A stretch of 64,000 bases of DNA, from positions 124,001 to 188,000 of the forward strand of contig NZ_JAEVFE010000002.1 in assembly GCF_016803135.1 (NCBI RefSeq), given 5' to 3'. This document shows positions 41,833 through 44,696 of this stretch, in pieces (the stretch's first letter is position 1; each line of letters begins with the position of its first letter). The position numbers and the translations under genes are program-made. Under the pieces are notes generated by a model. It had not been told where the DNA came from. It saw only the letters and a program-made list of their open reading frames with translations, and searched no databases. Source of the DNA: Altererythrobacter sp. C41 (GTDB lineage: Bacteria; Pseudomonadota; Alphaproteobacteria; Sphingomonadales; Sphingomonadaceae).

Positions 41833-41995
41833 GGTCAAGCTCCGTTGCTAGAATGTAAAGCAACCTAGACACTGCTGTGCCGAATGTCAAGCGTCCACGA
41901 CAATATGGCGTGCAAGCTTGCCATAGCGGCAGCCGGTACACTTGCACGCCAGCGAGGACTTGAACCGTTAACCCTTCGCGGGTATCTCGGCCGCC

Positions 41996-42067
41996 ATGAA
42001 CGCGCTGCCGATCACGGCCACGACTACCACCACCCGGGCCCTCCGGGGGCGGTCGGTCGCGGTCTGA
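41996..42067 (+). CDS. Threonine-rich leader peptide upstream of thrS
   Basis: A 23-residue frame (ATG 41996, TGA 42065) contains ITATTTTTR: six threonine codons within eight (ACG, ACG, ACT, ACC, ACC, ACC) after an Ile. It lies 155 bases before thrS. This is what a classical attenuation leader peptide for threonine looks like, as in the gammaproteobacterial thr operon. Ribosome stalling when charged tRNA-Thr is low would couple thrS expression to its own product. No strong Shine-Dalgarno precedes the ATG, and the alternative is a chance Thr-rich frame. Confidence 0.68.
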   Translation: MNALPITATTTTTRALRGRSVAV

Positions 42068-42077
42068 CGCGATCTGT

Positions 42078-42099
42078 CGCCGCCCGGTTTCGGGCGGTG
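42078..42099 (+). promoter_or_regulatory. GC-rich hairpin following the leader peptide
   Basis: CCGCCCG (42080-42086) pairs with CGGGCGG (42091-42097) around loop GTTT, extendable by a G-T and a C-G pair. It begins 10 bases after the leader stop. GGGCGG inside the leader (42047-42052) could instead pair with CCGCCC, giving an alternative fold. No T-tract follows, so this would be an antiterminator-like or pausing stem, not a plain intrinsic terminator. Confidence 0.45.
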
Positions 42100-42150
42100 C
42101 GGCGTTCCTCCTGAAATCGTGATCAACATCAACGCCGCTCTTCAAGCGCG

Positions 42151-42198
42151 GGGCGCGCTGTGCCATGGCGCCCTCAACTGGGCGCCGCCGATAGCGCC
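42151..42198 (+). promoter_or_regulatory. Chain of mutually exclusive hairpins ahead of the thrS ribosome-binding site
   Basis: Four short segments can pair in alternation: A GGGCGC (42151-42156), B GCGCCC (42168-42173), C GGGCGC (42180-42185) and D GCGCC (42194-42198). A:B, B:C (6-base loop) and C:D (8-base loop) cannot all form at once. The last stem ends 6 bases before AAAGGAA (42205-42211), the thrS Shine-Dalgarno region. The arrangement is that of an attenuator or translational switch, but such pairings also arise by chance in GC-rich DNA. Confidence 0.45.
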
Positions 42199-42222
42199 GC
42201 GCCAAAGGAACGGTACGAAACG

Positions 42223-44235
42223 ATGACGGAACTGCTCAAGATCAGCCTGCCCGACGGTTCGGTGCGCGAGGTCGAGCCCGGGACCACGCCGGCCGATATC
42301 GCCGCCGCGATCGGCCCGGGGTTGGCCAAGGCCGCGCTCGCTGCGCGGATAGACGGCGAAGTGCGGGACATCATGCGCCCCTTCGAAGGCGACGCGGAGC
42401 TAGCGCTGATCACCGCGCGCGACGAGGAAGACGCGCTCGAACTGGTCCGTCACGATTACGCCCACGTGCTGGCGGAGGCGGTGCAGGCGCTGTGGCCCGG
42501 AACGCAGATCACGTTCGGCCCGGCGACCGAGGACGGCTTTTACTACGACGTGAAGGCGCCCGACACGCGCGACCCCTTCTCGATGGACGACCTGCCGGCG
42601 ATCGAGGAGAAGATGCGCGAGATCATCCGCGCCGACAAACCGTTGCGGCGCGAGGTCTGGAGCCGCCAGGCGCTGATCGAGAAGTGGGAAGCCGAAGGCG
42701 AGACCTTCAAGGCCGAATGGGCGAAGGAGCTGCCCGAGGATGAGGAACTGACGGTCTACTGGTCGGGCCCCCCTCACCAAGAAGGTTCCTGGCTCGACAT
42801 GTGCCGCGGTCCGCACCTCGCCAGCACCGGCAAGCTCGATCCGCAGGCCTTCAAGCTGATGCGCGTCGCGGGCGCCTACTGGCGCGGCGACCAGCGCAAC
42901 GCGCAGCTTACGCGCATCTACGGAACCGGCTGGCTCAACAAGAAGCAGCTCGACGCGCATCTCCACCGGCTGGAGGAAGCCGCCAAGCGCGACCACCGCA
43001 AGCTGGGCCGCGAGATGGACCTGTTCCACTTACAGGAAGAAGCGCACGGCAGCGTCTTCTGGCACCCGCAGGGCTACCGCGTGTGGCGCGAGCTCGAGGC
43101 TTACATGCGCCGCGCGATCGACGGCGCCGGCTACCGTGAGATCAAGACGCCGCAGGTGATGGACGCCCGCCAATGGGAGCAGTCCGGCCACTGGGGCAAG
43201 TACCGCGAGAACATGTTTGTCATTCCCGACGAGGTGCCGAACGTCGAGGACGAGGGCCCGCTGGTCTCCGACGCGGCGGACTGGATGGCGCTCAAGCCGA
43301 TGAACTGCCCGGCGCACGTCCTCGTCTTCAAGCAGGGCATCAAGTCCTACCGCGACCTGCCGCTGCGCCTCTACGAGAACGGTTGCTGCCACCGCAACGA
43401 GCCGCACGGCGCGCTTCACGGCCTGATGCGCGTGCGCCAGTTCACGCAGGACGACGCGCACATCTTCTGCCGCGAGGACCAGATCGTCGAAGAAGTGCGC
43501 AAGTTCTGCGAGCTGGCCGACCGGGTCTACAAGGACTTCGGCTTCACTTACGAGATCAAGCTCGCGCTGCGGCCGGAAAAGCGCTTCGGCAGCGACGAAG
43601 TTTGGGACATTGCCGAGGCCGAGCTGCGCGATGCGGTGGAGAAGGCCGGCTTCGCCACCGAGGAATACGGCTGGGGCGAGCTGCCCGGCGAAGGTGCGTT
43701 CTATGCGCCCAAGCTCGAATGGCACCTGACCGACGCGATCGGGCGCGTGTGGCAGGTCGGCACGATCCAGTCCGATCGCGTGCTGCCCGACCGGCTCGAC
43801 GCGAGCTATATCGGGGAGGATGGCGAGAAGCATCGCCCGATCATGCTCCACCGCGCGATCTTCGGGTCCTACGAGCGCTTCATCGGCATCCTGATCGAGC
43901 ACTTCGCGGGTCGCCTGCCAGTATGGCTCGCGCCGACCCAGGCGGTCGTGGCGACGATCGTCTCCGATGCCGATGCCTACGCGGCGGATACGGTGCGCCG
44001 GCTCGAAACGGCCGGGATCCGGGTCGAGGCCGATCTTCGCAACGAGAAGATCAACTACAAGGTGCGCGAGCACAGTCTGGCCAAAGTCCCGCACCTGCTG
44101 GTGGTCGGCAAGCGTGAGGCCGATGAAGGCACTGTCGCGGTCCGCACGCTCGGCGAGCAGCAGCAGCAGGTCATGCCGCTCGACGAGGCGATCGCGATGC
44201 TTCACGAGGCCGCGACCCCGCCCGACCTGCGGTGA
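42223..44235 (+). CDS. thrS: Threonyl-tRNA synthetase
   Basis: 670 residues. Domains in order: TGS (1-~65; [25 protein letters not shown]), N2 editing domain with [10 protein letters not shown] (His-containing HxxxH site) and [11 protein letters not shown], then the class II catalytic core ([38 protein letters not shown] with the zinc Cys, [15 protein letters not shown]) and the C-terminal anticodon-binding domain ([40 protein letters not shown]). It charges tRNA-Thr and edits Ser-tRNA-Thr. ATG 42223 follows AAGGAA. Preceded by a Thr-rich leader; not followed by infC as in many bacteria. Confidence 0.98.
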
Positions 44236-44696
44236 ATATCCGCCAGGGATCGCTGGCCGACGTTCCGCGCGCGCTGGAAATCTGGCGCGCGGCGGTCGAT
44301 GCGACGCATGGTTTTCTGACGCCCGAGGATCGCGTCGAGATCGACCGCATGGTGGCGGAGCAGTTCCTGCCTCAAGCCGATCTCTGGCTGGCCGAAGATG
44401 GCGAAGGACGTGTCCTCGGCTTCCTCGTGATGGAGGGTGACGAGATCGATGCGCTGTTCGTCGATCCGGCGGTGCACGGGCGGGGCTATGGCACGGCCCT
44501 GGTCGAGCATGCGCTCACCCTGTCGCCACGCGCGACGGTCGAGGCAAGCGAGCAGGCCAGCAATGCACTGCCGTTCTACGAGGCGCGGGGGTTCGTGCGG
44601 ATCGGACGATCGGAAACCGATCCACAGGGCCGGCCCTATCCGCTGGTTCGGTTGCGCTATGCCGGAGGCAGCGACCGTGGGTCGAGCGACGGATGA
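44232..44696 (+). CDS. GNAT family N-acetyltransferase
   Basis: 154 residues starting at GTG 44232, overlapping the thrS stop. GNAT features: [63 protein letters not shown] (acetyl-CoA motif A, HGRGYG) and [20 protein letters not shown] (motif B). It resembles YjaB-like acetyltransferases. Substrate unknown. The stop overlaps the next gene (ATGA), so thrS, this gene and the TauE gene form one coupled unit. Confidence 0.9.

Follow-up and report, generated by a model that had tools for sequence, protein, structure and literature searches.

The window, that is, the whole stretch of 64,000 nt of Altererythrobacter sp. C41 that was analysed, carries on its forward strand thrS, the gene of a threonine--tRNA ligase of 670 aa (TIGR00418, 625.8 bits with a cut-off of 383.65). 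The end of thrS overlaps by 4 bases with a GNAT acetyltransferase frame (44232-44696; PRK10514, 168.7 bits), which is possibly co-transcribed with it. The region upstream of thrS, described in an earlier note on this DNA as free of genes, indeed comprises 384 bases without a gene, if a 57-codon minus-strand frame starting at 41838 is taken as one. The Thr-rich frame of 23 codons that the same note had reported at 41996 is present, and its six Thr codons are clustered even more tightly than described, within seven instead of eight codons (42014-42034). The GC hairpin reported at 42080-42097 is also present; it corresponds to hairpin H (42079-42098) in the following list of features.

41960..41988, forward strand: P1, promoter-like element (TTGAAC, 17 nt, TATCTC), read from the sequence
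41996..42067, forward strand: leader ORF, ATG at 41996 to TGA at 42065-42067, 23 codons, MNALPITATTTTTRALRGRSVAV
42014..42034, forward strand: Thr codon run, 6 Thr in 7 codons
42034..42046, forward strand: small hairpin h0 (CCGG:CCGG) at the end of the Thr run; weak, 72.2% of cells paired, z 3.8
42048..42056, forward strand: segment 1, GGCGGTCGG, within the ORF; pairs with segment 2
42074..42081, forward strand: segment 2, CTGTCGCC, overlapping the 5' arm of H; partner of segment 1
42079..42098, forward strand: hairpin H (GCCGCCCG : CGGGCGGT); 96.7% of cells paired in 7 main pairs, one of them double-changed
42087..42094, forward strand: segment a, GTTTCGGG, overlapping the loop and the 3' arm of H; covariation with a'
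42099..42106, forward strand: segment b, GCGGCGTT; pairs with b'
42110..42118, forward strand: segment a', CCTGAAATC; partner of a
42131..42138, forward strand: segment b', AACGCCGC; b:b' is a terminator-like hairpin with a loop of 24 nt
42140..42168, forward strand: P2, conserved proximal element with CTT and, at nearly fixed spacing, TGTGCCATGG; candidate second promoter
42223..44235, forward strand: thrS, threonine--tRNA ligase

Altogether, 278 thrS upstream regions were gathered (261 distinct), including 217 distinct ones from the GTDB family of the window. ATG frames of 15–35 codons within the last 300 nt before thrS were classified by the number of Thr codons per eight codons. Among the 217 family upstream regions, frames with at least four, five, six and seven Thr in eight codons were observed in 107, 101, 80 and 47 cases, compared with 0.9, 0.0, 0.0 and 0.0 expected from dinucleotide shuffling. 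For the 300 nt upstream of thrS in the window itself, none of 5,000 dinucleotide shuffles contained such a frame with even five Thr in eight codons. A canonical leader, defined by an ATG 180–260 nt before thrS, a length of 17–30 codons and at least four Thr in eight codons, is present in 105 of the 217 regions and missing in 112. In 80 aligned rows, Thr is encoded at codons 10, 11, 12 and 13 in 75, 75, 78 and 78 cases, and within the Thr run the entropy is 0.45–1.42 at third codon positions and 0.00–0.33 at first and second positions, indicating that the variation is mostly synonymous. Conservation of the Thr run in relatives, proposed in the earlier note as a check, was thus found, with mostly synonymous drift. 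Judged from these comparisons, the frame at 41996-42067 is real and conserved, and, like the ORFs of ribosome-mediated attenuators, it is short and contains clustered cognate codons.

The leader is not universal in the family. Among the named records, the regions of Sphingobium, Sphingopyxis and Stakelama lack it, as do 10 of the 11 records named Sphingomonas, one record comprising 101 nt only. It was not found in Croceicoccus ponticola (L018/L033), which retains a P2-like element, and is present in its congener Croceicoccus sediminis (L019/L035); the device can therefore probably be lost. Two further regions (L262 and L194) have a degraded Thr run and yet an RNA switch that matches the covariance model described below (81 and 64.7 bits).

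Covariation of the helices behind the Thr run was analyzed in two alignments, A1 with 80 of 93 candidate rows and A2 with 38 of 57, the rows having been chosen partly by hand, and in the 105 canonical leader sequences. In a ranking of column pairs across the 105 sequences, two pairs of a:a' occupy the first and second places (92:121 and 93:120), and the top 60, which also contain many pairs that are not base pairs, include 86:99 of H, 94:119 of a:a', 53:84 and 58:80 of 1:2, and 107:139 and 110:136 of b:b'. For the combination of 1:2 and a:a' (80 rows), 90.3% of the cells are paired compared with 84.4% in shuffles, there are 80 double-change cells compared with 31.9, and none of 500 shuffles was as high on any of five measures. 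Seven of the eight pairs of helix 1:2 are double-changed despite the location of one strand in the ORF, with 87.8% of cells paired. For H together with h0 (80 rows), the corresponding values are 87.5% versus 86.5% paired cells and 14 versus 5.8 double changes, two of the five measures not being clearly above the shuffles. For H together with b:b' (38 rows), 27 double changes were counted versus 8.5 (reached by 0 of 500 shuffles), 21 of them in b:b'; on two of the five measures, 26 and 157 of the 500 shuffles were as high. Helix b:b' has 97.3% of cells paired over six pairs in these 38 rows, with four pairs double-changed.

A register-free test for contiguous stems in the 80 rows yielded z values of 12.4 for b:b', 11.9 for a:a', 5.7 for H, 3.8 for h0 and 1.8 for 1:2; for the 105 leaders, with 1:2 left out, they were 13.6 for a:a', 12.2 for b:b' and 7.1 for H. 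When each segment was confronted with its own partner and with the partners of the eight nearest relatives, its own partner was better in 64 of 80 rows for both a:a' and b:b' and in 44 of 80 for H; for 1:2 it was better in 36 and worse in 42. Taken together, a:a' and b:b' covary strongly, 1:2 covaries in one test and weakly in another, and H does so less. Alternative helices with one strand in the ORF and with compensatory changes are therefore present, although H is mostly invariant and 1:2 is weak in one of the tests.

These covarying helices are located at 42048-42138, that is, upstream of the chain of four segments at 42151-42198 to which the earlier note had assigned the switch. Pairings among those four segments do occur in the predicted fold of the window sequence, but they show little covariation (z values of -0.3 and 0.3 for b':d' and of 1.1 and 2.3 for c:c' in the 80 rows and the 105 leaders), so that the chain does not hold up as a conserved switch. 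By eye, the stretch from TGTGCCATGG to the thrS start is longer in the genus of the window than in most relatives. Two other candidates were rejected, also by eye: the thrS ribosome-binding site can pair with CGTTCCT (42103-42109) in the window, a pairing not kept in the relatives inspected, and a mimic of the tRNA-Thr anticodon in the loop before thrS was dropped because the loop base varies (UGUGCC/UCUGCC).

The 80 leaders were folded with a modelled ribosome, represented by a single-stranded mask that reached 15 nt to the 5' side and 12 nt to the 3' side of the A-site codon and was moved codon by codon. Offset zero was assigned to the codon located 16 nt ahead of segment 1. In 70 of the 80 rows, the spacing between the last Thr codon and the start of segment 1 is 14 nt, so that offset zero falls on that codon, and a ribosome stalled there should leave segment 1 exposed. 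When one of the last four Thr codons (offsets -9 to 0) occupied the A-site, the mean probability was 0.40–0.46 for a:a' and 0.27–0.34 for b:b'. At -15 and -12, b:b' reached 0.62 and 0.49, so that the earliest Thr codons cause no switch. Offset +3 is intermediate (0.25 for a:a' and 0.45 for b:b'), and from +6 to +33 a:a' dropped to 0.07–0.09, b:b' was 0.45–0.61 and H exceeded 0.5 in 62–66 of the 80 rows. The stop codon is at +33 in 73 of the 80 rows; at +39, two codons later, H was left in 9 of 80. The boundary of the switch moves by about one codon when the leading edge of the ribosome is set to +9 or +15.

When the stalled and the stop position were defined for each of the 80 sequences individually, the numbers of rows with a probability above 0.5 (stalled versus stop) were 31 versus 63 for the core of H, 32 versus 5 for a:a', 21 versus 53 for b:b' and 48 versus 0 for 1:2; the mutual exclusion in these numbers is partly built in, because the folding program does not form pseudoknots and a pseudoknot of a:a' and b:b' looks possible. 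Per sequence, stalling lowered b:b' by more than 0.3 in 41 of 80 cases, raised it in 4 and had little effect on it in 35; a:a' was higher in 29 and lower in none. In the sequence of the window, b:b' changed from 0.97 at the stop codon to 0.40 upon stalling and a:a' from 0.00 to 0.58; the single best fold of the stalled state still contains H and b:b', the shift occurring in the ensemble, and the fold without ribosome is that of the off state. A dependence of the fold on the ribosome position is thus found by computation, not in every sequence.

A covariance model built from 38 rows had one strong match in the genome of the window (E 1.3e-21; next match 3.1, with 150 of 4,671 first-look candidates scored). 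In the family, 51 of 100 thrS upstream loci exceeded a score of 40 bits, 14 of them being training rows and some others duplicates of these. Across the class, under stricter filters, it matched 3 of 190 genomes at E <=0.01, namely two of the family and one weak match outside it. Thr-rich frames elsewhere in the order and class were found in three of 44 distinct thrS upstream regions (L145, L158 and L162); 60 further regions from the order and class contained none with four Thr in eight codons. At the threshold of four Thr, the family of L158 (f72) has such frames in 8 of 10 upstream regions, and seven of these (L158 and L342-L347) combine a compact leader with a canonical U-tract terminator, in which six T come after CCCTCCCGG...CGGAGGG. 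The last part of the ORF of L342-L347 (GGAGGG, or GGGGGG in the case of L346) is similar to the 3' arm of this terminator and would represent a simple antiterminator. In folding of six f72 leaders, a set that does not include L158, the terminator had a probability of 0.0 with the ribosome on some Thr codons and of 0.8 at the stop codon; later Thr codons left it closed. The hairpin of L340 was not captured, its value being 0.0 at all positions. In family f73, 13 of 30 upstream regions reached the threshold, and 12 of the 13 share a leader of about 14–19 codons followed by a conserved stretch GATTCGGCCGGG...CCCGGCC (L145, L389, L396, L398, L405, L407-L412 and L415; ...PTTLTTVRT in L145, L405, L407 and L410). 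Several of these leaders have only four Thr, and the f73 case is therefore probable rather than clear. Two of 28 regions of family f58 reached the threshold, and only L162 is convincing. These leaders in other alphaproteobacteria are simpler than that of the window, and their folds look unrelated to it.

The putative promoter P1 ends at 41988; transcription should therefore start at or near the leader ATG. Its TTGA and TAT positions are prominent across the 105 leader upstream regions, and the best -10 match, a forced best match without shuffle control, ends 6–8 nt before the ATG in 91 of the 105 (102 scored). In the proximal element P2, positions 42141, 42142, 42159, 42161, 42165 and 42168 are invariant in 80 sequences. 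The P2 pattern occurs in 88 of the 105 leader upstream regions (0.0 expected) and in 18 of the 112 leaderless regions of the family (0.7 expected), and promoter-like variants are found at a similar place among the latter (CTTGC..GGCATA in 19, CTT..TGGCAAAG in 14, TTGACA..TTTAAG in 5). P2 is probably a second, proximal promoter of thrS. The earlier note had regarded RNA 5' ends downstream of 42067 as evidence against the leader; with P2 at 42140-42168, such an end would not by itself be fatal to it.

Our preferred reading, to which we assign a probability of about 0.78, is that the region acts as a ribosome-mediated attenuator, by which thrS expression is tied to the charging of Thr-tRNA. The message from P1 would begin at, or almost at, the leader ATG. 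If charged Thr-tRNA is scarce, the ribosome would halt at one of the final Thr codons, leaving segment 1 free to pair with segment 2; H would be weakened, a:a' would form and hold b in its loop, b:b' would be blocked, and RNA polymerase would continue into thrS. With ample charged Thr-tRNA, the ribosome at the stop codon would cover segment 1, H would form and a' would be released, and b:b' would form just before P2, where transcription from P1 would end. P2 would probably provide basal thrS expression. The ORF, its conservation, the helices and the computed dependence on the ribosome position are observed, whereas a promoter function of P1 and P2, the exclusion of b:b' by a:a', the end of transcription at b:b' and the role of Thr-tRNA as the trigger are inferred. 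An increase of thrS upon a shortage of Thr-tRNA, as predicted here, would make physiological sense. Of the control of thrS by Thr-tRNA through a leader peptide, as formulated in the earlier note, the core is retained for this member of the Sphingomonadales, in that the Thr run is conserved and the segments covary; the placement of the switch and the textbook geometry had to be given up.

A canonical intrinsic terminator with a U-tract is not found in the leader: in 72 of the 80 rows, only 2–3 T are present in the 8 nt that start with the CTT after b:b', and the CTT after b' belongs to P2. Without U-tract, the leader is classed as a variant of the ribosome-mediated attenuator. A scan with a terminator pattern found none; it covered loops of 3–8 nt only and could therefore not have detected b:b' with its loop of 24 nt. 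Termination at b:b' may be weakly intrinsic or Rho-dependent, or the helix may induce a pause in which P2 is covered. It is a real, if lesser, possibility that the same Thr sensor is set to the off state by Rho, or by pausing and occlusion of P2, and not by intrinsic termination: with H formed, a' and the following stretch would be largely exposed, and a polymerase at b:b' would cover the -35 part of P2. This possibility gains from the missing U-tract, from the assignment of the CTT behind b' to P2, an element present also in some leaderless regions, and from the predicted H state of the window, in which a' is mostly unpaired save for a hairpin of three pairs. It is weakened by b:b', which covaries as strongly as a:a', as a mere Rho site would not need, and by family f72, where the Thr leader is accompanied by a U-tract terminator of the ordinary kind.

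The direction of the switch could also be the classical one, with a Thr-stalled ribosome masking segment 1 and H, perhaps extended into b, acting as antiterminator. This is the textbook sequence of events in thr and trp leaders, and the 5' arm of H can indeed also pair with b (CGCCG:CGGCG; 0.81–0.97 of the 80 rows per pair). We nevertheless consider it improbable, since segment 1 lies 14 nt past the last Thr codon in most sequences, the folding scan gave the opposite result for leading edges of +9, +12 and +15, and the fold predicted for the window contains both H and b:b'. It is less probable still that ThrRS binds an operator near the thrS start and regulates translation autogenously, as in E. 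coli, the small ORF being incidental. Such an operator would have conserved tRNA-like stem-loops beside the ribosome-binding site. One hairpin is possible upstream of the thrS start, its loop containing a conserved TGTGCCA, and its arms covary weakly in the 105 sequences (z 2.3, a value reached in 4 of 500 permutations), but z is only 1.1 in the 80 sequences, the nearly fixed spacing from CTT to TGTGCCA fits a promoter better, and the Thr run is left unexplained. A chance Thr-rich frame in a GC-rich spacer is hardly credible, as the shuffle counts, the synonymous drift, the covariation and the family-wide conservation all argue against it and no point in its favour was found.

The attenuator proposed here has relatives among known systems. 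In the leaders thrL, trpL and pheM-pheST of E. coli, a short ORF that contains a cognate codon run is combined with alternative helices and followed by a cognate gene, and pheST illustrates that a synthetase gene can be the target of an attenuator. In contrast to thrL, trpL and pheM, the stalled ribosome would here expose, and not mask, segment 1, and the leader differs by a relay of four helices, the missing U-tract, a probable promoter behind the switch and a probably leaderless ORF. In Gram-positive T-box leaders, uncharged tRNA is sensed directly, without a leader peptide. In the Rfam search of the whole window at the gathering score, the only match was a tRNA-Leu elsewhere, with no match to an enteric Thr-leader or a T-box; for 41900-42260, a search up to E 10 yielded two chance-level snoRNA matches and neither a Thr-leader nor a T-box.

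A close case is thrL of Streptomyces lividans TK24, an 18-codon Thr leader peptide upstream of thrS (PMC8079986). As described in the passages on thrL, it is likewise transcribed leaderless and followed by a hairpin without a clear U-rich terminator; unlike the leader here it has two Thr only and belongs to another phylum, and alternative helices, conservation and a logic of ribosome positions are not given in that text on thrL (PMC8079986). A thrS leader peptide having already been reported there, the idea itself is not new; what is new here is this fold and its breadth. No report of an alphaproteobacterial thrS leader peptide was found in the literature searched, although a 2010 survey of attenuation in amino-acid and aminoacyl-tRNA operons (Lopatovskaya et al.) may predict it. 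The ingredients are known in the class from two cases, as far as the relevant passages of the sources describe them. The RNA of Sinorhizobium meliloti trpL begins with the ATG of the leader and an antiterminator forms upon stalling, as proposed here, but trpL has Trp codons and precedes trpE(G), and a terminator is drawn, whereas none of canonical form is found here (PMC7298713). In Caulobacter, with 375 leaderless messages, a small translated CDS similarly precedes an alphaproteobacterial synthetase gene; that gene is trpS, and a switch is not described in the passage concerned (PMC4117421). The thrS operator of E. coli, in which the enzyme itself is the sensor according to the part of the source that deals with it (PMC8058203), likewise tunes a synthetase to need, but without leader peptide. 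The same holds for the T-box, where the uncharged tRNA is the sensor.

A more far-reaching proposal is speculative and, in our judgement, rather unlikely as a whole. The relay without U-tract would park or remove the polymerase at b:b' on the -35 part of P2, so that one leader peptide would both stop the distal transcript and gate P2, and Thr-leader control of thrS would have arisen several times with unrelated folds, in the family of the window, in f72, in f73 and in Streptomyces.

As far as the text on thrL goes, the S. lividans case rests on the transcript data of one genome (PMC8079986); the present case would add a broadly conserved alphaproteobacterial leader with comparative evidence for a multi-helix switch. 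The predicted reversal of the ribosome geometry, together with the lack of a canonical terminator, would set the alphaproteobacterial case apart. It raises the question by what mechanism leaders of this type terminate transcription if they lack a U-tract, as also in Streptomyces according to that text (PMC8079986), and why bacteria have repeatedly swapped the devices that control thrS, be it an operator, a T-box or a leader peptide.
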